Assembly: GCA_903907995.1 (NCBI GenBank)
Contig: CAIVQH010000046.1
Span: 148,396-212,395, forward strand
Length of the DNA stretch: 64,000 nt
Direction: 5' to 3'
DNA from: an uncultured Verrucomicrobiota bacterium
Lineage (GTDB): Bacteria; Verrucomicrobiota; Verrucomicrobiia; Limisphaerales; UBA9464
Part shown: in pieces, positions 12,391 through 47,710 of the stretch
How positions within the stretch are numbered: position 1 is the first letter of the stretch
Layout: every line of letters begins with the position of its first letter
The notes under the pieces: generated by a model
Seen by the model: only the letters and a program-made list of their open reading frames with translations
The model's database searches: none
What the model was told of the DNA's origin: nothing
Program-made: the position numbers and the translations under genes

Positions 12391-12470
12391 GGTCTTATCC
12401 TGCTCATGCTCTTGCTCTTGCTCCCAGGACAAGAAAACTGACTGAAGGGAGTAAGAGCATGAGCAAGACC
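12391..12470. repeat. Word-repeat hairpin, TGCTC hexad type
   Basis: Two inverted arms (12391-12425 and 12447-12470) are built of degenerate hexads. The left arm reads CTGCTC ATGCTC TTGCTC TTGCTC; the right arm read on the minus strand gives TTGCTC ATGCTC TTACTC. The element fills the gap between the stop at 12381 and the rsmD start at 12485. It shares the hexad TTACTC with the hairpin at 13083-13160. Confidence 0.8.
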
Positions 12471-12484
12471 AGGAATTGCGAATT

Positions 12485-13090
12485 ATGCGAATCATTGGCG
12501 GACAGGCGGCAGGCCGGCTTGTGAAGGTCCCCGAAGGGCTGGGCGTCCGGCCCATGCCCGACAAGGTCAAGCTCGCGGTCTTCAACTCGCTGGGCGATTT
12601 CGTCGCCGGCGCGAGGGTGCTGGACCTGTTTTCCGGCACCGGTGCGCTGGGGCATGAATGCCTCAGCCGAGGGGGGGTGCTGCTCCACAGTGTCGAGAAA
12701 TCGGAGAAGCACGCGCGGTTCTACCGCCGCAACCTGGTGGCGGCCGGTTTGCCGGAGCACGCGGTGGAACTGCGGGTGAACGATGTTTTTAGCGCGGTGC
12801 CGGCACTGGCGACGGCGGGCCGGCAGTTTGACCTCGTGATCGCCGATCCGCCCTACGGCGAGAAAAACGTCGGCCGCCGTTCCACTTCGCTGGCCCAGCG
12901 GCTGCTGGACGAACCGAATCTGCCGCGCGTGCTCGCCCCCGGTGGCCTGTTCATCCTCGGCCATACCAAGCGCGACACCCTGGAAGTTCCGGCCTTCTGG
13001 AAGGAGCACCGGCAGCTCAAACATGGCGACACCGTGATCCGGTTTTTTAAGCCGGGGACCCCGACGACAGTGTCCGGATCCCCTTCTTAA
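12485..13090 (+). CDS. rsmD: 16S rRNA (guanine966-N2)-methyltransferase RsmD
   Basis: A 201-residue SAM-dependent methyltransferase that modifies G966 of 16S rRNA on the assembling small subunit. It starts MRIIGGQAAGRLVKVP, the typical RsmD opening, followed by RPMPDKVKLAVFNSL. Motif I is VLDLFSGTGALGHE near residue 45, and the catalytic (D)PPY motif is VIADPPYGEKN near residue 122. The ATG at 12485 has AGGA 10 bases upstream; a TTG nine bases earlier would repeat MRI and is too close to that site. The stop codon lies inside the left arm of the next hairpin repeat. Confidence 0.93.
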   Translation: MRIIGGQAAGRLVKVPEGLGVRPMPDKVKLAVFNSLGDFVAGARVLDLFSGTGALGHECLSRGGVLLHSVEKSEKHARFYRRNLVAAGLPEHAVELRVNDVFSAVPALATAGRQFDLVIADPPYGEKNVGRRSTSLAQRLLDEPNLPRVLAPGGLFILGHTKRDTLEVPAFWKEHRQLKHGDTVIRFFKPGTPTTVSGSPS

Positions 13091-13160
13091 TCTTACTCAT
13101 AATCCTAATCTTAATCACTTTGCCCTCGCGATTAAGATTATGAGTAAGATGAAGATGAAG
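13083..13160. repeat. Word-repeat hairpin, TNATC hexad type, copy 1
   Basis: The left arm (13087-13116) is five consecutive hexads: TTAATC TTACTC ATAATC CTAATC TTAATC. The right arm, read on the minus strand from 13159, is TTCATC TTCATC TTACTC ATAATC TTAATC. The arms pair well over about 30 bases with a short GC-rich spacer. The rsmD stop TAA (13088-13090) is part of the first hexad, and the right arm ends 20 bases before the stop of the convergent DUF362 gene. Confidence 0.85.
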
Positions 13161-13179
13161 AACCGGATACTCCCCGCCT

Positions 13180-14238
13180 CTACGGCACCCGCGTGACATC
13201 GATCCGCTGCAAATCCGCCACACCCAGCTCGATCAGCTCCGCGTTGCTGTAGAGATCGGTCTTCATCTTCTTCTCCCCCTCGACCTTCGCAGCCTCACGC
13301 GCCCGCTCCACGTCCGCCAACGCGAGCACGTCGAGCGCAACCGGATCCTTGCTGAAGCGCAGCTCGTTGAGCGGGATGGTGTAGTGCAGCAGCGTCAGCT
13401 CCTCGCCGCGATACTGGCAGACAAGCGCATCGCTGACGGCGAGCACCAGACGTGGTATGACGTCATCCAGCGCGCAGATGTCGGGCACCGACTCGGCCAT
13501 CCGCGCGGGGTCATTGGCGAAGCGGATCGTGTTGTCCACACTCGCCCAGGCCAGGCCGGCCAGATGGCCGTTCACGGCGGTAACGTTGTGGCTGAGCACC
13601 GGCGCCACCGTGATGATCTTGGTGAGATCATGCGTGAGCAGCCGGGTGACGTAGGATTTGCGCCCCGAATGGTCCTCTTCCTTGCGACCGAACTCCAGAT
13701 CGCCCGCCACCAGCCGGCCGATCAGCGGCGAATCGTAGAACTTCGATTCGTCCCAGCCGGCATCCTCACTGGCCACGCAGCGCACCCCGAGCCGCTTGGC
13801 CAGCTGGGTCCAGCCGCCGGCACGGAGATCCAGCGACCGCTTGTCCCAGATCACGATCTGGTTCGCGGGATGGCCGGCGGCAATCAGGCTCTCGATCAGC
13901 GCCTGCACGGTCGCCGGACGCGTGCCGCTGACCGCTCCGGGGGCGGCGGTCACCTTGAAGCCCACCGTATCCTTGGCGGTGATCAGGCTATGCCAGGCCG
14001 CGGTGGTGTCCGGCTTGCTTGCGAAGGCGATCAGCCCCTTGTCCACCATGCGCCGCACGACCTGGGTGTCGGGCACAAACGCCGTCGTGGCTGCGGCGTC
14101 ATGCACGACCACAACTCGCGCGTGCGGGGCGTTGGTGACGCCAGCCGGCACTGCCGACGGTTCGGCGGCAGCCGTCGCCACCGTTGCGAACAGCCGCAGG
14201 GCGGCCGCACAGGCTATGATGGATCGGACCCGGTTCAT
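13180..14238 (-). CDS. DUF362 domain protein, exported
   Basis: A 352-residue protein. The ATG at 14238 gives a signal peptide (RSIIACAAALRLFATVATAAA). The body matches the DUF362 pattern known from Verrucomicrobiota and Planctomycetes: VVVVHDAAATTAF, then a DTVGFKVTA-like strand, a PATVQALIESLIAAGHPANQ helix and an IVIWDKRSLDLRAGG strand. The later NVTAVNGHLAGLAWASVDNT segment also fits. DUF362 is often found in proteins linked to Fe-S or redox functions, but no ferredoxin cysteines are visible and its role is unknown. The gene converges with rsmD. Confidence 0.85.
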   Translation of the reverse strand: MNRVRSIIACAAALRLFATVATAAAEPSAVPAGVTNAPHARVVVVHDAAATTAFVPDTQVVRRMVDKGLIAFASKPDTTAAWHSLITAKDTVGFKVTAAPGAVSGTRPATVQALIESLIAAGHPANQIVIWDKRSLDLRAGGWTQLAKRLGVRCVASEDAGWDESKFYDSPLIGRLVAGDLEFGRKEEDHSGRKSYVTRLLTHDLTKIITVAPVLSHNVTAVNGHLAGLAWASVDNTIRFANDPARMAESVPDICALDDVIPRLVLAVSDALVCQYRGEELTLLHYTIPLNELRFSKDPVALDVLALADVERAREAAKVEGEKKMKTDLYSNAELIELGVADLQRIDVTRVP

Positions 14239-14455
14239 CGATGCCCCGAGAATACCGGAGCCGGGGAAAGGACGCAAAGGGTTGCCGCAACGTTCAAGCC
14301 GACTGCGCCGCCGGATCGGCAAATTCGGGGGAATAAATTGTCTTGTCCTCCCCGCCATGGATAGAAAGCTCGGCACTCACTGGCGCCGGTCCGGGTCAAT
14401 TGACGGGCTTCCGGCCCATAATGGGGTACAAATCTGATTCACCAATGACTTCGGC

Positions 14456-23556: not shown

Positions 23557-23910
23557 ACCCGAAAGCTAGCCAGAGTCGTGCCGGAAACAAGCGGGCGAAG
23601 AAGATGGGCTCCAGCCTTTGAATCAGGTTTTAAAATGCGAATCATCAGCATGTTTTCCTGATTTCAGCCTCATTGGCTGGCTCGGAGTCACTCAACCTGC
23701 CGATAAGCAATCGGATGTGCCTTTCGCACTTACGCATGAAATGGCGGCCCGGTTTGCTCATGATGCAGACTCACACTTGTTCTGTGGAAATCAGTCTGAA
23801 GGTGAACGAACTGCCCTTCCGCGCGTAGCAGCCGACGTGAGGAGGCTCCATTTTTCGCCCCAAGCCAGAGCCTCCTCACGTCGACTGCTACGAAAAGGCG
23901 CTCCTTTGCC
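23557..23910. other. Intergenic stretch between the protease and WecG-like genes
   Basis: About 350 bases. The first 260 should hold the promoter and leader of the minus-strand protease gene, but I see no convincing -35/-10 pair. The rest is occupied by the palindrome at 23824-23892. The plus-strand open frame here translates mainly the palindrome and is not considered a gene. Confidence 0.6.
23824..23892. repeat. 69-bp palindromic repeat (GACGTGAGGAGGCTC family), copy 1
   Basis: Two 25-base arms (23824-23848 and 23868-23892) match at 24 of 25 positions around a 19-base loop; the core is GACGTGAGGAGGCTC. A second copy with the same arm and loop lengths is at 36375-36443. The arrangement resembles REP-type extragenic palindromes. 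Confidence 0.9.
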
Positions 23911-26179: not shown

Positions 26180-26196
26180 GTGGAACTACAGACTTC

Positions 26197-33463: not shown

Positions 33464-33478
33464 CAACGCGGGCGGACG

Positions 33479-33659: not shown

Positions 33660-33662
33660 CCC

Positions 33663-34391
33663 GTGCCGAGCAAGTTCTACGTCGAAAGCGACGCGCGGGC
33701 CGCGAAGGTGGAAGACCTCTTCGCGACCATCGCGCCGCGCTACGACCTGATCAACGACCTGCAGAGCTTCGGGCTGCACCGGTGGTGGAAGCGCCGCCTG
33801 CTCCGGCTGGCTGCCGTGCAGCCCGGCGAACACGCGCTCGATGTCTGTTGTGGCACCGGCGATGTGACTTTCGCCCTCGCGCGGGCCGGTGCTGAAGCCA
33901 CCGGCTTCGACTTCAGTGAGCCGATGCTGGCTGTCGCCCGCCGCCGGGCGGCCGCCTGGCGCGCCCCGCTCACCGCTCCGCGCTTTGAACAGGGCGATGC
34001 CCTGCAACTCCCCTTCGCTGACGGCAGTTTTGAGGTAGTCACGATCAGTTATGGGCTGAGGAACCTCGCGGATTTCGACCGGGGACTGCGGGAACTGACC
34101 CGGGTGCTGCGACCCGGAGGACGCCTGCTGGTGCTCGATTTCGGCAAGCCCGACCTCGCCGCCTGGCGCTGGCTCTACTTCCAATACCTCCGCTGGCTGG
34201 TGCCGCTGTTTGGCCGGCTTTTCTGCGGCGATGCCGACACACACGGCTACATTCTGGATTCCCTTCGCAAATTCCCCGCCCAGCGCGGCGTGGAATTGAA
34301 GCTGCACGAACTCGGCTACGCTGAAACCCAGGTCGTGAACCTGCTCGGCGGCATCATGGGCATCAATTACGGGCGAAAGCGGTTGGACTGA
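33663..34391 (+). CDS. ubiE: Demethylmenaquinone / ubiquinone biosynthesis methyltransferase
   Basis: A 242-residue SAM-dependent C-methyltransferase that makes menaquinone from demethylmenaquinone. Family signs are KVEDLFATIAPRYDLINDLQS, the SAM motif LDVCCGTGDVTFALAR, FDFSEPMLAVAR and the GDALQLPFADGSFEVVTISY segment. YGLRNLADFDRGLREL, RVLRPGGRLLVLDF and the C-terminal GGIMGINYGRKR follow. The start is GTG at 33663, the only one giving a normal length. It lies four bases after the end of the pyrimidine-rich hairpin arm, so no Shine-Dalgarno sequence is present; the arm has in effect replaced the leader. The product call is firm. Confidence 0.95.
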   Translation: MPSKFYVESDARAAKVEDLFATIAPRYDLINDLQSFGLHRWWKRRLLRLAAVQPGEHALDVCCGTGDVTFALARAGAEATGFDFSEPMLAVARRRAAAWRAPLTAPRFEQGDALQLPFADGSFEVVTISYGLRNLADFDRGLRELTRVLRPGGRLLVLDFGKPDLAAWRWLYFQYLRWLVPLFGRLFCGDADTHGYILDSLRKFPAQRGVELKLHELGYAETQVVNLLGGIMGINYGRKRLD

Positions 34392-34472
34392 CCCATCCCA
34401 CATCAGGCGGCCACCAGCGTTTGCGCCCACTTCCGCGATTGCTGCCCCCAGACCATTCGGTAGCTTCACCCC

Positions 34473-36314: not shown

Positions 36315-36374
36315 TTTGGTCAGCCAGTGCGACGGGGTTTCCCGATCCGGCGACAAGCGAACGCCCCTTGATTG

Positions 36375-36443
36375 CGTAGCGGCCGACGTGAGGAGGCTCC
36401 ATTTTCCGTTCCAAATCAGAGCCTCCTCACGTCGGCTACTACG
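36375..36443. repeat. 69-bp palindromic repeat (GACGTGAGGAGGCTC family), copy 2
   Basis: Arms 36375-36399 and 36419-36443 match at 23 of 25 positions around a 19-base loop. Arm and loop lengths and most bases equal those of the copy at 23824-23892, including the CATTTT start of the loop. It lies between the BrkB-like gene and ribBA. Confidence 0.9.
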
Positions 36444-36523
36444 ATGAAAAGACATCCCTACACGTCCGCCCGCGCAGGGTTTGTTTTGTCGCTGGGCCGG
36501 TTGCACGCTAGCGTTTCGCCCGC

Positions 36524-37726
36524 TTGAAGACCGCCCCTTTTGACGACATCCCCTCCGTGCTCGCCGATCTCCGGCGAGGCAAACTGGTCATCGTGGTGGA
36601 TGACGAGGACCGGGAGAACGAGGGTGACCTCATCCTCGCGGCCGAGAAGGCTACGCCCCAGAACATCGGTTTCATGGTGCGCCATACCTCCGGCGTCATC
36701 TGCGTGCCCATGGAGGGCGCCGATCTCGACCGCCTGGAACTGCCGCTGATGACGCAGCAGAACATGGAGCGGATGCGCACCGCCTACACCATCTCGGTGG
36801 ATGCCGCCAAGAACGTGACCACCGGCATTTCCGCCGCCGACCGCGCCCACACGATCCAGCTGCTGGCCGGCACCAAGACAGTGGCGGATGACCTGGTGCG
36901 TCCGGGCCACATTTTTCCGCTCCGTTATCGTCAGGGTGGCGTGCTGCGTCGCGCGGGCCATACGGAAGCCTCCATCGATCTGGCCCGGCTCGCCGGTTTG
37001 CGCCCGGCCGGCGTACTGGCGGAAATCGTCAATGACGATGGCACGATGGCCCGCCTGCCCGCCCTGCGGAAATTCGCCACAAAGCACCGGCTGAAGATTT
37101 GTTCCATCGCGGACCTCATCCAGTATCGCCGCGCATCCGAAAAACTCGTCGAGCGCGTCGAGACGATCAACATGCCGACGGATTACGGCGACTTCGCCCT
37201 GCATCTCTACGCCTCCAAGATCGACGGCGCGCATCACTTGGCGCTGGTGAAAGGCGACGTGACCGGCAAATCCGGCGTGCTCGTGCGCGTGCACAGCGAG
37301 TGCCTCACCGGGGATGTCTTTGGCTCACGCCGCTGCGATTGCGGCCCGCAGCTTCACGCCGCCATGGAGCATATCCAGAAGGCCGGCCAGGGAGTGATCC
37401 TCTACATGCGCCAGGAAGGCCGCGGCATCGGTCTCGCGGCCAAGATCAAGTCCTACAAACTGCAGGAGAACGGCCTGGATACGGTGGACGCGAACCTGAA
37501 GCTCGGCTTCCCGATGGACCTGCGCGACTACGGGCTCGGCGCGCAGATGCTGTGTGATCTGGGGCTGAAGAAAATCCGCCTGCTCACCAACAATCCCAAG
37601 AAGGTGGTCGGCTTGCAGGGCTACGGCCTGAAGATCGTCGAACAGCTGCCGATCCGCATCCAGCCGAACCCGCACAATGCGCGCTACCTCGCCACCAAGC
37701 GCAAGCGGATGGGGCATCTGCTCTGA
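36524..37726 (+). CDS. ribBA: Bifunctional DHBP synthase / GTP cyclohydrolase II
   Basis: A 400-residue enzyme giving both precursors of riboflavin. The N-terminal half (about 1-205) makes 3,4-dihydroxy-2-butanone 4-phosphate from ribulose 5-phosphate: VIVVDDEDRENEGDLILAAE, then RPGHIFPLRYRQGGVLRRAG and HTEASIDLARLAGLRP. The second half opens GTP: HSECLTGDVFGSRRCDCGPQ supplies the three zinc cysteines, MRQEGRGIGLAAKIKSY the catalytic Arg, and LTNNPKKVVGLQGYGL the GTP contact. The start is TTG at 36524; no in-frame ATG lies near and the N-terminus fits the family there. No FMN riboswitch was seen; the region upstream is taken by the palindrome at 36375-36443. Confidence 0.96.
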   Translation: MKTAPFDDIPSVLADLRRGKLVIVVDDEDRENEGDLILAAEKATPQNIGFMVRHTSGVICVPMEGADLDRLELPLMTQQNMERMRTAYTISVDAAKNVTTGISAADRAHTIQLLAGTKTVADDLVRPGHIFPLRYRQGGVLRRAGHTEASIDLARLAGLRPAGVLAEIVNDDGTMARLPALRKFATKHRLKICSIADLIQYRRASEKLVERVETINMPTDYGDFALHLYASKIDGAHHLALVKGDVTGKSGVLVRVHSECLTGDVFGSRRCDCGPQLHAAMEHIQKAGQGVILYMRQEGRGIGLAAKIKSYKLQENGLDTVDANLKLGFPMDLRDYGLGAQMLCDLGLKKIRLLTNNPKKVVGLQGYGLKIVEQLPIRIQPNPHNARYLATKRKRMGHLL

Positions 37727-37760
37727 GCCGACGGGCGTTGCCCATCACTCCGCAGTGCCG

Positions 37761-37859
37761 TATTAATCATACTCATAATCTTTATCTTAATCCTCTTCGC
37801 GCGAAGCGGAAGAGAAACCCAGAGATTAGGATTAAGATTATGATTACGATCAAGATGGG
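37761..37859. repeat. Word-repeat hairpin, TNATC hexad type, copy 2
   Basis: The left arm is the hexad run TTAATC ATACTC ATAATC TTTATC TTAATC CTCTTC (37763-37798). The right arm, read on the minus strand, is CCCATC TTGATC GTAATC ATAATC TTAATC CTAATC. A GC-rich inner hairpin (CTTCGCGCGAAG) caps it. Hexads are shared with 13083-13160, but their order and number differ. Confidence 0.85.
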
Positions 37860-37919
37860 GAACAACGTCCATGCCGCATCCCGTTTGACCGGCATCACCT
37901 TCCCCGGCACGCTCGGCGG

Positions 37920-39224
37920 ATGATTTCCCGGTTCCTGCGGACAGGCACGGCGCTTCTGCTCGTGCTGGGTTGGAAGGCTCTGGCTGTGGACAAAATTCCC
38001 ATCAACGAGGACGAAAGCAAGGTGTCGCCCTACACCCTGCCCGATCCGCTCGTGTTTACGGATGGCCGCCCGGTCAAGGATGCCGCCGCCTGGTCACAGC
38101 GCCGCGCCGAAATCCTGGAGCTGTACCGCGCGCATGTCTACGGGCGCACGCCCAAGGGGCTTCCCCGGAAGAAGGCCACCGTCACCTCGGAAAATCACAA
38201 CGCACTCGGCGGCCTCGCCACCCGCAAACTGATCCACGTGCCGCTCCTCTGGAGTGACAAGGGTCCGGCACTCGACATTCTGCTCTATCTGCCGAACGCG
38301 GCGAAGCAGCCGGTGCCGGCCTTCGTCGGCTACAATTTTAACGGCAACCAAGCGGTCACCATGGACCCCGGCGTTCCGCTCGCCCGCAGCTGGATCGAGA
38401 ACCGCCGCGAGAACTTCATCACCAACAACGTCGCCAACGAACAGTCGCGCGGCTGCGAGGCGTCCGCGTGGCCCATCGAGCACATCCTCGCGCGCGGATA
38501 TGCGGTGGCGACGATCTATTATGGAGACGTGGAGGCGGATTTCGCCGAGGGCTGGAAGCAAAGTCTCCGGGGCGCGGCGGCCAAAGGCGGCACCAACCAT
38601 GTTTTTGCACCGGACGAATGGGGCGCCATCGCCGCGTGGTCCTGGGGGCTGAGCCGCGCGATGGATTACTTGGAAACCGACTCCTCCGTGGACGGCAAAC
38701 GGGTCGCGGTCATCGGCCATTCGCGGCTCGGCAAGACGTCGCTTTGGGCCGGCGCGCAGGACGAACGCTTCGCACTCGTCATTGCCAACGAATCCGGGGA
38801 AGGCGGCGCGGCGCTCGCCCGGCGGTGGTTCGGAGAGACCGTGTGGCGCATCAACGCCAGCTTCCCGCACTGGTTCTGCGGCCGGTTCAAGGATTACAAC
38901 GAGAACGTGCCCGCCCTGCCGGTCGATCAGCACGAACTCATCGCCCTCATGGCTCCCCGCCCCGTTTACGTGGCGAGCGCCGAGGACGACAAGTGGGCCG
39001 ATCCGCGCGGTGAATTCCTGGGCGCGAAGCACGCCGAACCGGTCTATGCGCTCTTCGGCAAACCCGGCCTCGGCGTCGCGGACATGCCGGCGGTGAACAC
39101 GCCGGCGGGTGGCACGATCGGCTACCACATCCGCACCGGCAAACACGCGCTCACCGCTTACGACTGGGACCAGTACATGAACTTCGCCGATCGGCATCTG
39201 AAGCCCGCCGATTCGGCGAAATAG
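37920..39224 (+). CDS. Exported glucuronoyl esterase-like hydrolase (CE15 type)
   Basis: A 434-residue alpha/beta hydrolase with a signal peptide (LRTGTALLLVLGWKALA). Bacterial CE15 enzymes cleave ester bonds between glucuronic acid on xylan and lignin alcohols. Visible signatures are the nucleophile elbow VIGHSRLGKTSLWAGAQD (Ser268), the NESGEGGAALARRWFGETV loop, the SAEDDKWADPRGEF region that often holds the acid residue, and GKHALTAYDWDQYMNFADRH with catalytic His409. The elbow GHSRLGK matches the bacterial CE15 pattern G-x-S-R-x-G. It probably acts in the periplasm or outside the cell in plant biomass use. The gene stands alone between ribBA and a convergent permease. Confidence 0.88.
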   Translation: MISRFLRTGTALLLVLGWKALAVDKIPINEDESKVSPYTLPDPLVFTDGRPVKDAAAWSQRRAEILELYRAHVYGRTPKGLPRKKATVTSENHNALGGLATRKLIHVPLLWSDKGPALDILLYLPNAAKQPVPAFVGYNFNGNQAVTMDPGVPLARSWIENRRENFITNNVANEQSRGCEASAWPIEHILARGYAVATIYYGDVEADFAEGWKQSLRGAAAKGGTNHVFAPDEWGAIAAWSWGLSRAMDYLETDSSVDGKRVAVIGHSRLGKTSLWAGAQDERFALVIANESGEGGAALARRWFGETVWRINASFPHWFCGRFKDYNENVPALPVDQHELIALMAPRPVYVASAEDDKWADPRGEFLGAKHAEPVYALFGKPGLGVADMPAVNTPAGGTIGYHIRTGKHALTAYDWDQYMNFADRHLKPADSAK

Positions 39225-39239
39225 CTCCGCACACGGTCC

Positions 39240-40346
39240 TCAGGCCGCCCGGTCCGCCCGGCGCAGCAGAAGGATGCCCGCCCCAACGAAAAGGAAATTC
39301 GGCAGCCAGAGGATCAGCACGGGATGCAGGTGCGGTTTGGTTTCCAGCGCCTGGCCGAGAATGATGAAGCTGTAATAGGCCAGCACCAGCAGCAGGGCGA
39401 TGCCCACCCCGGCATTGGTCTCCCGCCGGTGGGCCCGGATGCCCAGCGGAATGCCCACCAGGGTGAAGCCGAGGCAGGCGAAGGAAAACGCGATCTGCCG
39501 GTGGATCTGGACGTCGATCAGCGTGAGATCGACCCCTTTGGCCGCCTGTTTGCGACGTTCGGCCCGCAGCTGGCTGAAGGTCATCTCATTGAGCTTGAGT
39601 TCCGGCGGGGCAGGCCGGGAGTTGGCGATGGGCTGGTCCCATTCGGAGAGAAACTGTGACTGCCAGCCCTCGCCACTGCTGTAGCGCAGCGCCTGGACAT
39701 TATGGAGCTTGAGCAGCGACGGAAGCCCGTTGCTCAGAACCAGTTCCGCGTCGGAAGCGAGCGCGTCGAGGTTCCGCACGAGGGACCGGCTGCCATTTTC
39801 CAGCACGTTGGTTGTCCCGTAGATGAGCACGTTGCGCATCTGCCGGCCCCGGACTTCGCCCGCGTAGAGCGTCAGGTTGCCTCCCAGTTCCACATAGCGG
39901 CCCTCGGGGATGGTCTGGCGGTTCGGCTCACGCAGCACGGAGTCACGCAGCTCCTTGAAAGCCACGCGCGCGGCCGGGGCAACCCACATGTTGACGAGCG
40001 CGCTCACTCCGCTCAGCAGCACGGCCAGCCCAAACAGGGGGCGCACGAGCGCCAGCAGGCTGATGCCGCCGGCCCGGACCGCCGTGAGTTCCTGGTCCGC
40101 GCTGAAACGCCCAAAAACCAGCAGGGCCGCCGTGAGCAGCCCCATCGGCAGGGAGAAGGCGAGCACGAAGGGGATCAGCAGGCCGACGGCCCGGAACACC
40201 AGCCCCACTGTGGCCTGACCGCTGGCCAGCAGGTCGAGGATCTCACGCAGCACATTGCCCATGAGCAGCACCAGCGTGAAAACGCCGACGGTCATCAGCA
40301 GGGTGGCCAGAACCTGGCGCAACAGATACAGGTGGAGCGTTCGCAT
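39240..40346 (-). CDS. LptF/LptG family permease
   Basis: A 368-residue membrane protein of the lipopolysaccharide export transporter, in which LptF and LptG work with the ATPase LptB. The ATG at 40346 gives the usual opening MRTLHLYLLRQVLATLLMTV. Helices one to three follow in the first 120 residues (LREILDLLASG, PFVLAFSLPMGLLTAALLVF, RFSADQELTAVRAGGIS). A periplasmic beta-jellyroll domain (about 125-270) and three C-terminal helices complete the topology (FACLGFTLVGIPLGIRAHRR). FGRFSADQELTAVRAGG is the typical coupling region. No second Lpt permease is adjacent, so LptF versus LptG is not decided. Confidence 0.92.
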   Translation of the reverse strand: MRTLHLYLLRQVLATLLMTVGVFTLVLLMGNVLREILDLLASGQATVGLVFRAVGLLIPFVLAFSLPMGLLTAALLVFGRFSADQELTAVRAGGISLLALVRPLFGLAVLLSGVSALVNMWVAPAARVAFKELRDSVLREPNRQTIPEGRYVELGGNLTLYAGEVRGRQMRNVLIYGTTNVLENGSRSLVRNLDALASDAELVLSNGLPSLLKLHNVQALRYSSGEGWQSQFLSEWDQPIANSRPAPPELKLNEMTFSQLRAERRKQAAKGVDLTLIDVQIHRQIAFSFACLGFTLVGIPLGIRAHRRETNAGVGIALLLVLAYYSFIILGQALETKPHLHPVLILWLPNFLFVGAGILLLRRADRAA

Positions 40347-40408
40347 CGCGAAATAAGCCGGCCAGACTTTGCCCAACGCCTACCGGGTGGGCCAACAAGA
40401 TCGCCGGG

Positions 40409-40444
40409 AAAAAGAAAAAGGCCGCGTGAAACTCACGCGGCCTT
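40409..40444 (-). terminator. Intrinsic terminator after the second PEP-CTERM gene
   Basis: On the minus strand a perfect 12-bp stem AAGGCCGCGTGA / TCACGCGGCCTT with a three-base loop (40418-40444) runs into TTTTTCTTTTT. It ends the PEP-CTERM gene at 40471 before the LptF/G gene. Confidence 0.88.
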
Positions 40445-40470
40445 CGAAACACTTGTTAATCGCCCGGAAC

Positions 40471-41169
40471 TCAGGCCTGGGCAGCCTGGCGGTTGCGGAA
40501 GCGGCGGTAGCCGAGCATGCCGAGGCAGGCCACGGCACCAATCGCGCCATAAACCTTGGGCTCAGGCACCTGCGAGTTGAAATGATAGTCGTAAGTGATG
40601 GTCCCATCCGCGAACCCGGTGGTGGCAAAGTTAGGGATGTTGTTCCCACCGCCACCCGCTGCCCCCGTTGAGGTCAACGAGAAAAGAGCCAAGCTGAGGT
40701 TACCCGCGCCAGCAAAGGTACCCAGGTTCGAAGTGTAGGTGACGGTCTTCGTGTCCGTGCCCGCAGTCGTTCCGAAGTTTTTCGTCTGCCCGGCCCCGAG
40801 AGGAGGCACCGTGGTGTTGACCACCGACGGGATGGCCGTGACAATGCTGTTGCCCAGCGGATCAAGCAAGGTGATCGAAATCGTGGTCGTCAACTGGAAA
40901 ACGGCCGCGCTCGCGCCGGTGTTCTGAACGCTCTGCGTGGCGGCAGAACCGCCATGCAAGGTGACGGACACATCATCCAAAATGGCACCGGCCAAAGGTC
41001 CGGTCAGGTTATTGAAGGCGGGAAACACCAGCGACGTGCTGAAGTCGACGGCTTGTTGGGAACCGCTTGTGCCGTAGTTGGCGGCGTAAGGGCCGTCGGT
41101 AAGCGCGAAGGCCGAGGATGCGGTCAATGCACCCAGTGCAATGACGGCGATGGTTTTAAAGTTTTTCAT
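40471..41169 (-). CDS. PEP-CTERM sorting domain protein, choice-of-anchor type
   Basis: A 232-residue exported protein: signal peptide MKNFKTIAVIALGALTASSA with cleavage near FALTDG, and a beta-sandwich body with FPAFNNLTGPLAGAILDDVS. The order of LTDG..., TQSVQNTGASAAVFQLTTTI and the later strands resembles choice-of-anchor E domains (weak match). The C-terminal sorting tail is VPEPKVYGAIGAVACLGMLG followed by YRRFRNRQAAQA. The classical PEP motif, hydrophobic helix and basic end make it a substrate for an exosortase encoded elsewhere. Its 5' region borders the inserted element at 41242-41691, whose target duplication lies 65 bases upstream of the ATG. It may have lost or gained regulatory sequence through that insertion. 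Confidence 0.88.
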   Translation of the reverse strand: MKNFKTIAVIALGALTASSAFALTDGPYAANYGTSGSQQAVDFSTSLVFPAFNNLTGPLAGAILDDVSVTLHGGSAATQSVQNTGASAAVFQLTTTISITLLDPLGNSIVTAIPSVVNTTVPPLGAGQTKNFGTTAGTDTKTVTYTSNLGTFAGAGNLSLALFSLTSTGAAGGGGNNIPNFATTGFADGTITYDYHFNSQVPEPKVYGAIGAVACLGMLGYRRFRNRQAAQA

Positions 41170-41241
41170 GGTCGATTAGTTGTAAGTGTTCCGAACTGCG
41201 GTGCCAGATTTAGGCGATGGCGTCCAAAGGGTCAACGGATA

Positions 41242-41673
41242 GGCGGTGTCCTAATTTGGGGTCGGAAATAAATTTCTTCCGTTTCCGGCCAGTCGGCGTC
41301 CCATGTGGAGGCGTAACCATTACCCACTCCCATGAACTGGACCTGCCCAAACTGCGGACACCAAAACGAGCTTTTCCTAATGGGTACAGTACCCACTTCA
41401 CTGACCTGTGATTCCTGTCACAGGACATTGCCCACAGAGTTGGTTCCTCCGAAGGTTGAACGTGTGACGTGGAGGTTTTCAGCCTCACCGGGCACGCCAA
41501 GGCGACGCGCTGTTACGGCTGGAGCTATGGCGACCCTGAACAGTTCATCACGATACTTGAGCTTCCGCCCGTGACTTCCGCGCAGACAGCGGTCAAGGTT
41601 GGTGTCGCCTACCAGATTCGCCGGGGCAAGACCTGAACCAAGCCAATGAATGCCTTCGTTCAGGAATCGGATT

Positions 41674-41691
<18 letters not shown>
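41242..41691. mobile_element. 450-bp non-autonomous element with 16-bp terminal inverted repeats and a zinc-ribbon passenger
   Basis: Left end GGCGGTGTCCTAATTT (41242-41257) and right end AAATTAGGACACCGCC (41676-41691) are perfect 16-bp inverted repeats. The 8-bp direct repeat AACGGATA flanks them immediately (41234-41241 and 41692-41699), as expected for a transposition target duplication. Removing the element and one copy of AACGGATA restores the aminomutase reading frame to a longer end, ISVDPLDAIA, with a TAA at 41210-41212. The inside holds no transposase, only the broken zinc-ribbon ORF. The GG...TGTC ends and 8-bp duplication would fit mobilisation by an IS1595-like transposase, but that is a guess. 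Confidence 0.9.
41332..41636 (+). pseudogene. Zinc-ribbon protein carried by the inverted-repeat element, frameshifted
   Basis: The ATG at 41332 starts MNWTCPNCGHQNELF, and a second CxxC (CDSCHRTLP) completes a zinc ribbon of about 35 residues. The frame opened by the ATG turns into Arg/Ser-rich noise after PKVERVTW. A different frame continues sensibly as VEVFSLTGHAKATRCYGWSY and on to AVKVGVAYQIRRGKT with a stop at 41634-41636. One missing base near 41466 would join them as ERVDVEVFSLTG, giving about 100 residues. I do not know the family. The gene takes up most of the 450-bp element, so it is its cargo. Confidence 0.7.
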
Positions 41692-42957
<1,266 letters not shown>

Positions 42958-43014
42958 AGTAGGGTGCGAAGTGCGACCGTCAAGGCGACCAACTGCCGTT
43001 TTTGGGCGCTTTTT

Positions 43015-43728
43015 TCAATCGTGCGTCAGGGCCAGCAGCCGCCGCTCCAACTCCGCCCGCAACCGTTCCCGCTCGGCCTCGTCGGCCTCGGGAGGGACGT
43101 ACAGGGGCTCGCCGAAGTTCACCACCACGCGGGTGAAAGGCAGGGGAATCTGGAACCGGTCCCAGCTGCGGAGGGTTTTCTTCCAACTGAGCGAATAGCA
43201 GACCGGCATTACCGGCAACCCGGTCAATTGGGCAGCGGCGATGACCCCTGGTTGCACCACGTAGCAGGGGCCGCGCGGGCCATCCGGCGTTACGGCGAGG
43301 TCGTAGCCCTGCTCGGCTGCCGCCGTCAGCTCGCGCAAGGCCGCCGCCCCTCGCCGGCTGGAGGAACCGCGTACCGGTTTCACCCCGAACAGCTCCAGCA
43401 CCCGCGCCAGCAGACCGCCGTCGCGGCTGGCGCTGGTGATGGCCGCCAACTGCCGGTTCGCCTGGTATCGGCCTACGTAATGGCGGTAAATCGGGAGGCA
43501 CAGGGCCAGACGGTTGTGCCAGACGGCAAAAATCATCCGTTGCTTGATGCCCAGGGGGAAGAGGTCCGACTTATCCTCCCGATGCCAGCGCAAGGTCATC
43601 GCCAACGCGCTGATCACGGCCCAGATCAGCCGCGCCGCCAAGCGACCGTGCCACTTGGGCTGCTCTGGCACGACCACGCCGGACCGGCCTGTGGCCGGGC
43701 GGCTCGCTTTTGGCTGGTCCCGCTCCAT
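43015..43728 (-). CDS. DUF374 lysophospholipid acyltransferase-like protein
   Basis: A 237-residue membrane-associated protein. An N-terminal hydrophobic helix (LAARLIWAVISALAMTL) precedes the acyltransferase block FAVWHNRLALCLPIY. Later blocks are ITSASRDGGLLARVLELFG, VKPVRGSSSRRGAAALREL and the DLAVTPDGPRGPCYVVQPGV segment. DUF374 proteins are related to LpxL/PlsC-type acyltransferases; in some bacteria members add a fatty acid to lipid A or Kdo. The His-x-Asn and TPDGPRGP motifs are intact. The start ATG overlaps the ruvA stop (TGATG), showing translational coupling. A GTG three bases upstream is an alternative start. Confidence 0.88.
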   Translation of the reverse strand: MERDQPKASRPATGRSGVVVPEQPKWHGRLAARLIWAVISALAMTLRWHREDKSDLFPLGIKQRMIFAVWHNRLALCLPIYRHYVGRYQANRQLAAITSASRDGGLLARVLELFGVKPVRGSSSRRGAAALRELTAAAEQGYDLAVTPDGPRGPCYVVQPGVIAAAQLTGLPVMPVCYSLSWKKTLRSWDRFQIPLPFTRVVVNFGEPLYVPPEADEAERERLRAELERRLLALTHD

Positions 43729-44339
43729 CACGCGCCCTTCTTCAGGCAGGCGCGGACCAGTTGTTCCACGCTGGCCGCCTCGCCCAGCACTGCCAGCGCG
43801 GCCCGGACCGCCTCGTGGGCGTCCACCGGCTTGAAGCCCAGCGCCGTCAGGGCCAGCGACGCGTCATTCAGTTTGGTATCGCTCGGGGATGCGCCCTTGG
43901 CACCCGGACCGGCCAAGGCGACGCCAGAGCCAAAGGCGCCCAGTTTGTCCTTCAGCTCGACCACGATGCGTTCCGCCGTTTTCTTACCCACTCCGGAGAT
44001 GCTGGAGAGCGCCTTCACGTCGGCCGCCGCCACGGCGGCGCGGAAGCCGGTCACGCTGGTGCCACTGAGGACATTCAGGGCGAGCTTCGGCCCGATGCCC
44101 GATACCGTGTGGATGAGCAACCGGAACAGGTCCCGCTCGGCCGCGCTCATGAAACCGTAGAGCACATGGGCATCCTCCCGCACGGCCAGATGGGTGAGCA
44201 GATGCACCTCCGCGCCGACGGCAGGCAGGCGGTCGAACGACGACAGCGGAATCAGCACCTCGTACCCGACGCCATGCACCTCGACCGTGACGGTGGTGGG
44301 CAGGGCCTCAACCAATTTGCCGTGGAGAAACGTGATCAC
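43728..44339 (-). CDS. ruvA: Holliday junction branch migration protein RuvA
   Basis: A 203-residue subunit that binds four-way DNA junctions as a tetramer and loads the RuvB motor. The GTG at 44339 gives the usual opening ITFLHGKLVEALPTTVTVEV and the family length. Domain I holds HGVGYEVLIPL and HLLTHLAVREDAHVLYGF. Domain II has two helix-hairpin-helix motifs, LIHTVSGIGPKLALNVLSG and ALSSISGVGKKTAERIVVEL. After a flexible linker, domain III (about 155-203; LTALGFKPVDAHEAVRAAL) contacts RuvB. ruvB and ruvC are not in the window. The stop overlaps the start of the acyltransferase gene. Confidence 0.96.
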   Translation of the reverse strand: MITFLHGKLVEALPTTVTVEVHGVGYEVLIPLSSFDRLPAVGAEVHLLTHLAVREDAHVLYGFMSAAERDLFRLLIHTVSGIGPKLALNVLSGTSVTGFRAAVAAADVKALSSISGVGKKTAERIVVELKDKLGAFGSGVALAGPGAKGASPSDTKLNDASLALTALGFKPVDAHEAVRAALAVLGEAASVEQLVRACLKKGA

Positions 44340-44384
44340 GCGCCCGGAGTGAAGCACCCGCCGTCCGTACGGGGAAGCGGCGAA

Positions 44385-44497
44385 GCGAGTGGGTCAGTAG
44401 CTCAGTGATCAGTAAGACAGTAAATAGAAGCGATGGGGCAAACCTGTTCGCATTCTGACTAACTGATTACTGATTACTGACCTACTGACTCACTCGC
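44385..44497. repeat. Word-repeat hairpin, ACTGATT heptad type, copy 1
   Basis: The right arm contains ACTGATT ACTGATT ACTGACCT ACTGACTC (44462-44491). The left arm (44385-44428) is its imperfect complement with CAGTAG, CAGTGAT and CAGTAAG words. The stop codon of the minus-strand Gly/Cys-rich gene (44490-44492) lies inside the right arm. A copy is at 44968-45073. Confidence 0.85.
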
Positions 44498-44894
44498 CCC
44501 CACCGCCACCTCCACAATCGCCACCGCCGGAGCCGCAATCGCAGCCGCCCCCGCCGGAATCACCGGAGAAGCCACCGCCATCGCTGGAAAACGAACTGCC
44601 GCAATCGCCCGCGGAACCGGGACTGTCCACGGAGCCGGCATCAGCGGCTGACATTGAAGGCGGCTGTGACTCGCATCCCGAGGGACTGTCGTTTGAGGGG
44701 GAATTCCACCAGAACCACGCCGGCCAGAAACCGGACCCGGAATCCCCATCCGACCAGTCTCCCCCGCTGCGGTAGTCGTAGCCTGAGCCACCCCATCCTC
44801 CCCTGCCCCATCGCCGGGCGAGGATCGCCAGCAACCAAATCAGTCCGATTCCACCCACCGCCAATCCGACGATTACCATGAAGGCTAGGTTCAT
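44490..44894 (-). CDS. Small membrane protein with Gly/Ser/Cys-rich tail
   Basis: A 134-residue protein. The ATG at 44894 has AAAGGGA seven bases upstream and gives one membrane helix directly (MNLAFMVIVGLAVGGIGLIW then LLAILARRW). It is followed by a Gly/Trp/Asp region and a tail of about 55 residues made almost only of Gly, Ser, Cys and Asp, ending CDCGSGGGDCGGGGGGE. The tail has at least five cysteines in short spacing, which could form disulfides or bind metal. Similar single-helix proteins with GGGCGGGG ends occur widely with no settled role. The stop codon lies inside a hairpin repeat arm, so the very end of the protein may be repeat-derived. Confidence 0.72.
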   Translation of the reverse strand: MNLAFMVIVGLAVGGIGLIWLLAILARRWGRGGWGGSGYDYRSGGDWSDGDSGSGFWPAWFWWNSPSNDSPSGCESQPPSMSAADAGSVDSPGSAGDCGSSFSSDGGGFSGDSGGGGCDCGSGGGDCGGGGGGE

Positions 44895-44967
44895 TGTGTC
44901 CCTTTGGTTTCTGTGGTTCATGTTTCCACCCGCTACAACCGTGAAAAAGGCTGCCTGGTAACGGGCG

Positions 44968-45073
44968 AGTGATCGGTGAGTCAGTAATCAGTAGGCCAGT
45001 AATCAGAGGCTACCGCTGCGCCATCTCCGCAATCTGGCCTACTGAATACTGATTCACTGATTACTGGCTCACT
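44968..45073. repeat. Word-repeat hairpin, ACTGATT heptad type, copy 2
   Basis: The right arm (45034-45073) carries ACTGAAT, ACTGATTC, ACTGATT and ACTGGCTC. The left arm (44968-44999) is complementary with AGTCAGTAATCAGTAGGCCAG-like words. The right arm runs into the moaC stop codon (45072-45074), just as copy 1 overlaps a stop. Confidence 0.85.
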
Positions 45074-45524
45074 AACCCTTTCGCTTCGACACCAGCCGCA
45101 CCTCCCCAATCACCATCGCCTTGTCCACCGCCTTGCACATGTCGTAGATTGTGAGTGCGGCGACGCTCACCGCCATCAATGCCTCCATCTCGACGCCGGT
45201 GGGGGCGGTGATTTTGGCCGAGGCCGTGATGACGATGCGGTCGCGCGATGCCGGAATCTCAAAATTCACCCCGCAATGCGTGATGGGCAAGGGATGGCAG
45301 AGCGGGATCAGTTCGCCCGTCTTCTTGGCGGCGAGGATAGCCGCGATCCGGGCGGTCGCGAGCACGTTGCCCTTGGCGATCTGGTCGGACTCGATGAGCG
45401 CCAGCGTCTCCGGAGCCAGGTGGATTTCTCCTGCGGCCACCGCCTCGCGCAGTACGGCGGGCTTGTGGGAAACGTCCACCATGCTGGCCTCGCCGGTGGC
45501 GGAGATGTGGGAAAGCTGACCCAT
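45072..45524 (-). CDS. moaC: Cyclic pyranopterin monophosphate synthase MoaC
   Basis: A 150-residue enzyme that converts the radical SAM product of MoaA to cyclic pyranopterin monophosphate, an early step of molybdenum cofactor synthesis. The ATG at 45524 gives the standard MoaC start MGQLSHISATGEASMVDVSH. Conserved segments are KGNVLATARIAAILAAKKTG, IPLCHPLPITHCGVNFEI, TAPTGVEMEALMAVSVAALT and IYDMCKAVDKAMVIGEVRLV. The open frame upstream of 45524 is not family-like. Length is normal. The gene stands alone, with MoeA 17 kb away. The stop lies at the edge of a hairpin repeat. Confidence 0.95.
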   Translation of the reverse strand: MGQLSHISATGEASMVDVSHKPAVLREAVAAGEIHLAPETLALIESDQIAKGNVLATARIAAILAAKKTGELIPLCHPLPITHCGVNFEIPASRDRIVITASAKITAPTGVEMEALMAVSVAALTIYDMCKAVDKAMVIGEVRLVSKRKG

Positions 45525-45596
45525 GCGCGCAGCGTGTCGCAGAGCCACGGCCCGCGCAATCCCGCCCGTCACATCGGGTACACTTTCCATCGTGGT

Positions 45597-45794
45597 TGGC
45601 CTCGGGCATCAGGAGCGCGTGCGGCTTCAGATGGCCGTTCTCCCTCACCCTTACCCTCTCCCGCTGGGAGAGGGAACCGCCGGGAAGGCCGCAGGCAGAT
45701 GGGGAGATTCACCGGCCAATCCCGTGCCTGCCTTCGCCGACCGGCGGGCGACAATTCTCCCTCTCCCAGGGGGAGAGGGCCGGGGTGAGGGTGA
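45597..45794. repeat. Composite inverted-repeat element (CCCTCTCCC family), copy 1
   Basis: The outer arms, TTCTCCCTCACCCTTACCC and its near complement, lie at 45638 and 45794. Each half also contains a small hairpin (CCCTCTCCCGCTGGGAGAGGG-like). The reverse complement of 45638-45794 aligns along its length with 60439-60594, sharing the core CGCCGGTCGGCGAAGGCAGG. A 40-base left flank beginning TTGGCCTCGGGCA is also shared, in direct orientation. Confidence 0.85.
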
Positions 45795-45820
45795 ACGGCG
45801 AGGATGAAAAGCGGCACGCC

Positions 45821-46438
45821 TTACATCGCGAGCTGCACCACGCGCTCGGTCAACTGCTCCGTCCAGCGCGCGACGTAACTCATCGTGCGGTAGATCTGCT
45901 CCAGCCGTTCCAGGGGCAGCGCGGCGCGGCGCTCCGGGGAGCCGATCGGCGGGGCGGCGTCCCACGTCGCGTTCATCGCCTGCAGCTCGGTGATCAGCTC
46001 GTCGCGGCGGGTATTCACGCGACCTTTTAGCGCCTGAAGCTTGTCCGCCCAGTCCAGCCCCTCCTGCATGATCCGTAGCTTGAGCATGGGCGAGGTCGCC
46101 GTGGTTTTCTTCGTGAGGAAGGCGTCGGCATCGCGGCAGGTTTGGCCGATCTCCACAAAGAGATCCATCGTGCCGGGCGGGATGCGCTGGATATCACCCG
46201 GCTTCGCGCCGGCCTCCAGTTCCAGCAGGTGCAACAGACGCTCCCGCGGTTCGCGCAACGTGTTGAAAGCGGCGTTCAATTCGGCATACCGCTCGTTGGC
46301 CGCCAGCTTCTCCGCCTCGGATGCGCCATGCACACGGTCGGGATGCACCGCCGTCGAAAGCGGCATAAACCGCCCCTTGAGCGCATCGGCATCGAGCCAC
46401 GGGCGGCGGGGCTCGGCGAGAAGGGCGAAGGCATCCAT
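45821..46438 (-). CDS. hscB: HscB-like J-domain co-chaperone for Fe-S assembly
   Basis: A 205-residue protein. The N-terminal J-domain (about 1-75) contains the essential HPD at residues 33-35 (STAVHPDRVHGASEAEK), then LAANERYAELNAAFNTLREP. The C-terminal three-helix domain (about 90-205) is the part of HscB that holds the IscU scaffold. HscB delivers IscU to the Hsp70 HscA. The gene lies two bases after an orphan gene, which separates it from iscA; no hscA or iscU is in the window. Assignment rests on J-domain position, total length and the Fe-S neighbour, since HscB sequences vary strongly. Confidence 0.85.
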   Translation of the reverse strand: MDAFALLAEPRRPWLDADALKGRFMPLSTAVHPDRVHGASEAEKLAANERYAELNAAFNTLREPRERLLHLLELEAGAKPGDIQRIPPGTMDLFVEIGQTCRDADAFLTKKTTATSPMLKLRIMQEGLDWADKLQALKGRVNTRRDELITELQAMNATWDAAPPIGSPERRAALPLERLEQIYRTMSYVARWTEQLTERVVQLAM

Positions 46439-46440
46439 GC

Positions 46441-47169
46441 TTATGCTGAACCGCTCATGTTCAACAAATAGGGCAATGCTGTCTCGATTGCTTTTGCATA
46501 GGGTTCAACCTTAGTAGCAAGAGAATCAATTTTACTAATGAGCTTAAGGAATTGCTGAAGCGCAGGTTCGCCGCTGTTGGCTTTGATTTCCTCTTGATGC
46601 CGAAGCATTTCACCTACAGCTAGTGAAACCGCTTCCCGCATCGCGCGCGAGCCTCTGATCCGGTAGCTATCAATCGCATTACGGGCCACCGTCAAGAGGT
46701 CTAGAATCGTAGATTTAAGCGATTTCGGAAGCCCGCTTGCTGTGACTTTCTCAAACAAAGACGCAATCTCTGCGCTAAATGCCCTGATGTCTTCTTCAGG
46801 TATTCGGACTTCGGGTTTGTGCTTCGAAAGCTCATCGGCAACGAAGCGAAATTCCGCTAATGACTCTTCTGGAAACCTTCCTGCATGCCCCCATCCCTCT
46901 CCAAGATTTTCCAAAGAAAGGATGTCACGTGCCTTTGGGAAAGGGCGCAAAAAGAATTGGTGATTGATTCCGTCTATCTGCTTCAAATCACTTTCCAAGA
47001 TCTCAAGGAGATCTCTGACCTCAATTAGCGCTTTCGACACTGATTGAAGGTCGTCCGAAGGCAATTGAAACGCGTGCGCGTATGCTTGTCTGATATTCCC
47101 GCCCTGACGAGTACGTAGACGAGACAGTACGTCATAAAGCCACCACGCTCGGCAGTCCTGCTTTTTCAT
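46441..47169 (-). CDS. Orphan protein inserted between iscA and hscB
   Basis: A 242-residue protein, probably all helical and cytoplasmic; no signal peptide, membrane segment or catalytic motif is visible. Its composition is clearly more AT-rich than both neighbours. It fits between the two Fe-S genes with gaps of only three and two bases, and the junctions are near-repeats: GCATAAG then TCATG before it (47167-47178), GCATAAG then CATG after it (46436-46446). This suggests a gene inserted precisely at the iscA stop / hscB start. I recognise no family. It would be expressed with the Fe-S genes, but need not share their function. Confidence 0.75.
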   Translation of the reverse strand: MKKQDCRAWWLYDVLSRLRTRQGGNIRQAYAHAFQLPSDDLQSVSKALIEVRDLLEILESDLKQIDGINHQFFLRPFPKARDILSLENLGEGWGHAGRFPEESLAEFRFVADELSKHKPEVRIPEEDIRAFSAEIASLFEKVTASGLPKSLKSTILDLLTVARNAIDSYRIRGSRAMREAVSLAVGEMLRHQEEIKANSGEPALQQFLKLISKIDSLATKVEPYAKAIETALPYLLNMSGSA

Positions 47170-47172
47170 GAC

Positions 47173-47568
47173 TTATGCACTGAAACTCTCGCCACACGAG
47201 CAGCTCGTCGCGGCGTTCGGGTTCTTCACCTTGAAGCCGCCCTCGGTCAGCGCATCGGAATAGTCCAGCTCGGAGCCGGTCACGTAGAGCGCGCTCTTGG
47301 GGTCCACGACCACGCGCACGCCGGCGCTTTCGACCAGGATGTCCCGGTTCTGCGGCTGGTCTTGCAGGTCCATCTTGTATTGCAGGCCCGAGCAGCCGCC
47401 GCCCACGACCGCCACGCGCAGCACGCCCTGGGGACGCCCCTGCCGCCCGAGCAGCGTCGAGACCTTCTTGCCCGCGTTTTCGCTGAGCTTGATGAGCCGC
47501 TCGTCGCCCACGCGAAAACTGGGCGTGGCGGCGGCGGGTTTGGCGGCTCCGATTTTTCCGGCGATCAT
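47173..47568 (-). CDS. iscA: A-type Fe-S cluster carrier (IscA/ErpA family)
   Basis: A 131-residue A-type carrier that receives an Fe-S cluster and passes it to apo-proteins. The conserved cysteines are in VAVVGGGCSGLQYKMDL (first) and NAATSCSCGESFSA at the C-terminus (second and third). VVDPKSALYVTGSELDYSDA, then GGFKVKNPNA, is typical. It has an N-terminal extension of about 25 residues rich in Ala and Pro relative to E. coli IscA. Sequence does not separate IscA from ErpA or SufA; the nearby hscB favours an Isc-type context. The orphan gene follows after three bases. Confidence 0.9.
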   Translation of the reverse strand: MIAGKIGAAKPAAATPSFRVGDERLIKLSENAGKKVSTLLGRQGRPQGVLRVAVVGGGCSGLQYKMDLQDQPQNRDILVESAGVRVVVDPKSALYVTGSELDYSDALTEGGFKVKNPNAATSCSCGESFSA

Positions 47569-47620
47569 GTCGCCGCCAACCTAGGGGCGACGCGCAGCAG
47601 CGTCAACGAACGCCGGAGAG

Positions 47621-47710
47621 GGAGGAGTTCAATTTGGAAAGCAGGAAAACGGGAAACAGACCGGTCCGCTTTTCCTTTCCTGCTTTCCTGTTTTCCAAAT
47701 TTCAATTCCC
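47621..47710. repeat. Word-repeat hairpin, GGAAARCR octad type, in a divergent promoter region
   Basis: The left arm reads GGAAAGCA GGAAAACG GGAAACAG (47636-47659). The right arm, read on the minus strand, reads GGAAAACA GGAAAGCA GGAAAGG. Flanking AATT-rich bases extend the pairing. It fills the gap between iscA (minus) and the oxidoreductase (plus). Single words of the same kind occur at 24790-24808 and 49150-49160 without a partner arm. Confidence 0.82.

Follow-up and report, generated by a model that had tools for sequence, protein, structure and literature searches.

Inverted arrays of degenerate short words form intergenic hairpins in an uncultured Verrucomicrobiota bacterium, and their hexad word looks constrained

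Seven intergenic hairpins in a 64,000-nucleotide stretch from an uncultured Verrucomicrobiota bacterium (GenBank assembly GCA_903907995.1; C46:148396-212395, hereafter the window) have arms that consist of tandem short words, and they raise the question of what is conserved in them: the pairing of the arms, a copied element, or the word itself. The original prediction, made from the window alone, reported these hairpins and ascribed them to a generating process or to selection on the arms. All seven were found where reported. The comparison of related sequences suggests that the word of the hexad type, and not base pairing, is the conserved unit, and this word looks constrained. The genome comprises 5.1 Mb in 60 contigs. 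We sampled 604 kb of it, consisting of the window and 27 further stretches chosen for spread rather than randomly, and compared it with a congener, G392, which is syntenic with the window at ~92.5% identity.

The hexad N-T-A-A-T-C has nearly fixed positions 2, 5, and 6, semi-free positions 3–4, and a free first base, N. We counted the changes at each position between orthologous words of our genome and G392. The words came from 30 loci outside the window and none from the window's own hairpins; gappy arms were skipped (7/34 and 1/26) and words holding a gap were dropped. For the words of our genome, the changes per 120 were 31 at N, 4 at T2, 13 at A3, 9 at A4, 2 at T5, and 1 at C6. Conditioned on the G392 words, the changes per 108 were 27, 2, 16, 11, 3, and 0, respectively. 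A slightly stricter earlier tally gave 35/123 changes at N. The two genomes differ at 2095/12944 four-fold sites (16%). The words had been selected on the T2, T5, and C6 of one genome, so that these positions should change at about half the neutral rate; the observed values for T2+T5+C6 (7/360 and 5/324) were well below half the four-fold rate (p 5e-7 and 2e-7, respectively). When words were chosen by exact neighbours only, the deviations in our genome were 21/108 at positions 3–4 and 2/162 at positions 2, 5, and 6, and those in G392 were 21/96 and 3/144. Over the retained loci of all word types, the arms differed at 163/1648 sites, the spacers at 147/841 (p 1e-7), and the flanks at 198/1906. 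For the hexad word, these counts agree with the selection on arms that had been proposed. Coding for hydrophobic codons (NTA ATC) was rejected, since conservation is strongest at C6, which would be a third codon position.

The free base was used to compare arms, neighbouring words, and loci, with a hexad set of 21 hairpins from our genome and 15 from G392. Between the arms of our hairpins, the free base agreed in 32/81 cases (permutation mean 29.9, p 0.34) and positions 3–4 in 42/81 (mean 42.1). The free-base agreement was 23/60 in G392 (mean 19.4, p 0.16) and 89/208 in other genomes (mean 82.4, p 0.15), where 49 of 65 hairpins were kept and 16 similarity-fetched ones dropped; all 65 together gave 124/281 against 112.2 (p 0.053). 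Successive words in our genome shared the free base in 44/148 cases (0.30; chance 0.33). Between our loci, the agreement was that of chance (526/1659 at the same position and 2296/6921 at different positions), and the inter-locus arm similarity was not above that of word-resampled hairpins, of which 26/200 reached the mean and 81/200 the maximum. Because the free-base agreement is at chance, the arms of our hexad hairpins are not mutual copies, their words show no sign of slippage copying, and no single element can be recognised as the source of the loci. Thus, neither slippage copying, which had been put forward originally, nor arm-to-arm copying accounts for the hexads, and alignment of the hexad loci as diverged copies of one miniature inverted-repeat transposable element (MITE), named in advance as the outcome that would overturn the prediction, was not obtained. 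Arm-templated repair, which would give free-base agreement between arms, and slippage as the sole cause of the hexads were rejected on the same counts.

The arrays are also oriented. Strict TAATC array pairs pointed inward in 28 cases (3 in our genome, 2 in G392, and 23 in others) and outward in 0, in a count that excludes loci fetched via the hairpin pattern or similarity; including such loci, the values were 42 and 0. In other genomes, 144 arrays had no strict partner within 120 nt, compared with 37 inward ones. The loops of our hexad hairpins (12–16 nt) share just weak 5-mers, and a common loop was rejected. A recurrent 15-nt loop was seen in the genus of G139, but this sample is biased because similarity searches supplied its loci.

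A scan for arm autocorrelation, set beforehand as a check of the original prediction, found 62 inverted repeats above the threshold in the 604 kb sample, 24 of which had 6–8 nt periodic arms (13 and 6, respectively, in the window alone), whereas five dinucleotide shuffles gave 4, 6, 10, 4, and 8 repeats, with 0, 0, 1, 1, and 0 periodic. An ordinary CCCTCTCCC repeat family accounts for two of the 24 (window 45634 and L053:19616). The hairpin pattern TAATCNTAATC-N5-35-GATTANGATTA had 26 placements (20 places) in our genome and 32 placements (18 places) in G392, and the array pattern TAATCNTAATCNTAATC had 49 matches in our genome; the mirrored control gave 0 in each case. The sequences fetched from our genome held 45 inverted repeats with periodic arms, of which five are artefacts of coding sequence or ordinary repeats. 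The words of our genome are hexads (NTAATC and NTGCTC), heptads (TCAGTAA, AAGGCAA, GGAGACA, CGAGTTT, CCAAGCA, GGGTCTT, and TCAAAAT), and octads (AACNAAGR, GGAAARCA, and GCCAGTAA), and kindred words such as CAGTAGG, CGAACNT, and AGTCCAA occur in other genomes of the phylum. An octad hairpin of the GCCAGTAA type lies inside the feoB open reading frame (L270:18193-18284, on C46 beyond the window); in G392 its left arm is 24 nt (three octads) longer and the whole 12 nt longer.

The window hairpins are summarized in Table 1. Periodic arms of 6–8 nt, as predicted, were confirmed for five of them; 44385 and 44968 fell below the periodicity threshold because their TCAGT/CCAGT core is followed by a 2 or 3 nt spacer, which gives a period of 7–8 that is not fixed. 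In regards to the four hairpins reported at stop codons, 12391, 13083, and 44968 were placed there, and the stop at 44385 could not be tied to a called gene. Two hairpins had been reported to fill divergent regions; 33479 lies between divergent genes, and 47621 was also classed as divergent. At the site of 33479, G391 and G393 have just two words, and none were seen in G394 and G396.

Table 1. Coordinates of the window hairpins (by reported position) and of related features.
Feature	Coordinates	Context	Syntenic site in G392
12391, hexad hairpin (NTGCTC)	arms 12398-12425 + 12447-12474	between stop at 12381 and rsmD	hairpin missing
13083, hexad hairpin (NTAATC/NTACTC)	arms 13069-13110 + 13130-13171	rsmD stop is the first TAA of the hairpin, inside the first hexad	present, reworded
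33479, heptad hairpin (AAGGAAA/AAGGCAA)	arms 33486-33521 + 33627-33662	between divergent glycosyltransferase gene and ubiE	arms 72/72 identical; spacer differs 23/105
37761, hexad hairpin (NTAATC)	arms 37758-37792 + 37824-37858	31 nt downstream of ribBA	present, strongly reworded
44385, TCAGT-core hairpin	arms 44385-44415 + 44467-44497	spacers 2-3 nt	present, word-sized indels
44968, TCAGT/CCAGT-core hairpin	arms 44965-44999 + 45034-45068	right arm ends just before moaC stop at 45072 (moaC on minus strand)	present, word-sized indels
47621, octad hairpin (GGAAARCR)	arms 47631-47656 + 47676-47701	divergent intergenic region	hairpin of another word, TCAAAAT/TCAAAGC
Artefacts among the 45 periodic repeats	L047:1452; window 17466, 47867, 45634; L053:19616		
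Desulfobacterota hexad hairpins	L062, L074, L081, L086, L137, L071, L111, L112	mostly five words per arm, 5-nt AAAAC-like loop	

We tentatively interpret the hexad loci, from their sequences, as intergenic inverted arrays of a degenerate word, similar to repetitive extragenic palindromes (REPs) and bacterial interspersed mosaic elements (BIMEs), in which the words would be bound singly by a putative sequence-specific protein. Each word would serve as a separate contact site, cooperative binding would come from the arrangement of several words in two inverted blocks, and the hairpin would be a by-product of the inverted sites. Ribbon-helix-helix operator arrays, such as the omega heptads and the MetJ met boxes, are tandem 7–8 bp words, direct and inverted, that are bound cooperatively; they may serve as a model for word binding here, although those are small sets of sites close to the operons or centromeres to which they belong. 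Orthologous hexad arrays preserve the word, N drifts, and entire words are gained or lost. New arrays might come by insertion, mostly intergenic or at gene ends, and might then be kept or lost, so that one genus would hold several word families. The topological or transcription-boundary roles reported for BIMEs would fit such arrays.

Several observations weigh against this interpretation. The evidence for constraint comes from ~120 hexad words of one species pair, the pair compared in depth among eight genomes listed for the genus, and N changes faster than the four-fold sites (p 0.008); therefore, word misalignment or rewriting contributes. Among 40 loci compared with G392, 30 passed a gap-based retention rule and 10 failed; w70286 passed, probably through a chance alignment, and L267:4718 passed though its word has changed. 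Retention at 30/40 means that function at any single locus is not strongly required. The genes neighbouring the 24 periodic repeats, in a tally that rests on crude open reading frame calls, showed no preferred orientation (-+ 5, -- 4, +- 4, ++ 3, within an open reading frame 7, and edge 1), and hence no role is hinted. No word-binding protein turned up, and no search for one was made. The arms are collinear in a number of heptad hairpins (L043, L265:13385, L218:17798, and L106), which means that the reading of the hairpin as a by-product covers the hexads best. The arms of the 39 other-genome hairpins outside the Desulfobacterota agreed slightly above chance at the free base (73/160 against 64.5, p 0.058). 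In two Desulfobacterota assemblies, the free bases of ten hexad hairpins follow a fixed order (336/432 same-position agreement) and the 5-nt loop is shared; judged by its sequence, this hairpin is an ordinary copied element and a counter-example to the pattern of our genome. The original statement that construction rather than sequence is shared thus holds for our hexad loci and fails for these copies. In G157, which has 571 TAATCN matches, 8/10 arrays inspected are unpaired direct arrays in which N is much repeated, as slippage would give.

The main rival is that the hairpins are small non-autonomous mobile elements, MITE- or REP-like and with no host function, whose transposase recognises the word arrays as ends and which perhaps moved as a unit by cut-and-paste. 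We consider this possible, though rather unlikely. One case in its favour is L019, where 107 nt have been inserted at the gcvT 3′ end; the insertion is absent in G392, G391, G393, G394, and G396 and is the clearest gain among the compared loci. The gcvT end reads CGCAAAGCCTGA in these five relatives, whereas the stop codon in our genome is now the array's first TAA. GGAAA flanks L019 on either side and the relatives have one GCAAA, which is a possible 5-bp target duplication; no second clean one was found among the word hairpins. L019 had no close donor among the loci fetched from our genome, which do not include every array; its donor could be unsampled or lost, or L019 could have come by cut-and-paste or new synthesis. 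The absence of 12391 and L022 from G392, the patchy occurrence of arrays within genera, the copied Desulfobacterota family, and a nested pair in which the spacer between octad GGAAARCA arms contains a hexad hairpin (L287:1431-1612, both present in G392) also favour mobility. On the other hand, our hexad loci have nothing beyond the grammar in common, and in-place constraint on the word is unexpected for dead copies. The 72 feet of 36 hexad hairpins carried GTAG 0 times and CGTC 3 times, with ~3.1 expected for each. Y1 transposase genes were present in 19/19 array-rich genomes but also in 16/19 array-poor ones, both sets being hand-picked (Fisher p 0.23); their presence fails to separate the two, and the Y1 transposase was rejected as a marker of arrays. 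REPs are associated with RAYT (Y1 transposase) genes; our genome has 5 Y1_Tnp matches, and one of three inspected is near a word hairpin: the IS200-like gene at L270:17035-17487 has a TCAAAAT-type hairpin ~0.8 kb upstream.

Alternatively, where DNA is broken or an end has stalled, an enzyme might extend both 3′ ends with degenerate words, after which the ends are joined. Such writing would put the same word inward in both arms with independent free bases, and it would account for the inward orientation, for the independence of free bases between arms, neighbouring words, and loci, and for an insertion such as L019 with no visible donor. It would also account for different words at one site in relatives. 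Another word forms the hairpin or arrays that G392 carries at 47631, at L264:11270, and probably at L043, and a short GGAAAGCA array occupies the L023 site in G391 and G393. Replacement at these sites and at L267:4718 may be partly coincidence, because about one intergenic gap in 10 holds such a hairpin (24 hairpins against 255 gaps of at least 50 nt). Writing is quite unlikely, as orthologous arrays are inherited with modest change, so that most are old, no candidate enzyme was found, and the Desulfobacterota hold a copied family. RVT_1 had no match in our genome, G392, G157, G289, and G101, five of the 19 array-rich genomes; writing by a reverse transcriptase was rejected on this basis, and a reverse transcriptase, for which the original prediction had suggested a search, does not look needed. 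It is also unlikely, though conceivable, that a machine with no reverse transcriptase writes a fixed five-base core and 1–3 untemplated bases at both ends of a break, which would leave inward-facing arrays, and that the cell then retains these and reads them singly by word. If so, a single machine, common to several phyla, would have the various word types as its dialects.

Mutation alone, that is, an inverted duplication followed by replication slippage that makes the arms periodic with no selection on the word, would explain the word-sized indels that separate orthologous arrays of relatives, the homogeneous direct arrays of G157, and the collinear arms of some heptad hairpins. In a survey cited in PMC4679880, heptanucleotides were the commonest units of long simple repeats in most genomes, which also suits it. 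Against it, successive free bases are equal only at chance level, the orientation is exclusively inward, and the arms agree at the free base no more than by chance. The positions of the word also diverge unequally, which disfavours it for the hexads, and we regard it as improbable.

In regards to RNA structure, six of the window hairpins were folded, the long 33479 being left out; the z-scores were -5.8, -5.5, -4.7, -10.8, -10.0, and -4.7, and no shuffle folded equally well. Retention for pairing, as terminators or as protection of mRNA 3′ ends, is very improbable: the predicted folds are strong and gene ends hold four of the seven hairpins, but the hexad arms show no co-variation, divergent regions are as frequent as convergent ends (5 and 4 of 24), and none of 17 terminator-like sites (GC-rich stem and T run) at 33000–48000 coincides with the five hairpins there, 12391 and 13083 lying outside the scan. 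Rfam 15 at the gathering score had 0 matches in the window. A Rho-site reading, with YC steps at word spacing, was set aside; words such as AAGGCAA and GGAGACA contain no YC step.

The arrays resemble REPs in placement and turnover, with a different internal rule. REPs and BIMEs, as described in PMC3733652, are also short intergenic inverted elements in many families that are unevenly spread between species, and REPs with GTAG/CGTC tags are known in the Verrucomicrobia, in Opitutus terrae. The REPs described there have a 5–13 bp stem, the GTAG/CGTC tag, and a shared sequence (PMC3733652), whereas here the arms are word arrays of at least 18 nt, the hexad feet show no tag beyond the expected count, and the 21 hexad loci of our genome have no shared stem or loop sequence beyond the word and weak loop 5-mers. 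The likeness to MITEs lies in the size of ~70–110 bp, the inverted ends, one lineage-specific insertion, and the copied Desulfobacterota family; dispersed copies of one sequence were found in the ten Desulfobacterota hairpins, whereas the hexad loci of our genus share the word only and show one possible 5-bp target duplication. Tandem heptamer repeats (LSSR, STRR, and TAACTGA) consist of one short unit that slippage has expanded head to tail, whereas our hexad arrays are inverted and their successive free bases agree at chance.

Heptamer direct repeats of cyanobacteria are known as STRR. TAACTGA heptamer direct repeats are reported in Beggiatoaceae, Cyanobacteria, and Bacteroidetes, and BOGUAY has 169 sets of them but a single indirect repeat (PMC4679880). 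These are likewise short intergenic words that are patchy across phyla and differ by word-sized indels between close relatives, and our TCAGTAA resembles TAACTGA, which is the nearest described word, but as direct repeats (PMC4679880). Here, the blocks are inverted, the words are degenerate with one free base, and several words occur per genome. The original view that no family of this kind has been described is therefore qualified by this related word, and it stands for inverted degenerate arrays as far as our literature search goes: no paper on them was recognised, subscription titles being mostly outside reach, so that absence is unproven.

We also surveyed a sample of the phylum (387 genomes in 198 genera). 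The hexad array TAATCNTAATCNTAATC was found in 59/387 genomes and 46/198 genera, with a maximum of 571 matches per genome. Many of the 59 genomes have one or few matches, and occurrence within genera is patchy. The mirrored control was not always empty (73 against 330 matches in G015 and 10 against 18 in G259). Among the matches listed for the four-word array were records titled Desulfobacteraceae, Planctomycetota, Anaerolineae, Bacteroidetes, and others, mostly metagenome bins, and some single matches in low-GC genomes may be chance. Chthoniobacter flavus, a cultured relative, also has arrays. The TAATC hairpin pattern also occurs in 13 IMG/VR viral contigs (L370-L382), which may be viral or host DNA. 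At L222:12308-12373 in G157, GATTAA words form a long array that has no paired partner and continues into the telomere-like string GGTTAGGGTTAGG.

The window and its surroundings contain other repeats. The ordinary CCCTCTCCC-arm family occurs at window 45634-45799 and 60434-60601 and at L053:19616-19773; two copies are 87% identical over 163 nt, and the one at window 45560-45811 accounts for 252 nt in the window and 0 in G392. REP-like palindromes of the form CGTAGC(A/G)GCCGACGTGAGGAGGCTC with a 19-nt spacer (window 23824-23892 and 36375-36443; L046:12611-12685) are distinct from the word hairpins. An element of ~440 nt at window 41242-41690, with inverted ends near GGCGGTGTCCTAATTTG, is missing in G392; CAACGGATA flanks it on both sides in the window and occurs once in G392, which is MITE-insertion-like. 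A non-periodic inverted repeat with 31-nt arms (97%) and a 62-nt spacer is located at window 27414-27537.

The commonest hairpin type in this genus fits neither base pairing nor copying, which are the usual accounts of intergenic hairpins. What persists is a short word, while the pairing does not and the loci cannot be recognised as copies, and the question becomes what reads the word. Reading of the word would explain why words as different as TAATC, TCAGT, AAGGCAA, and GGAAARC build one architecture in one genome.

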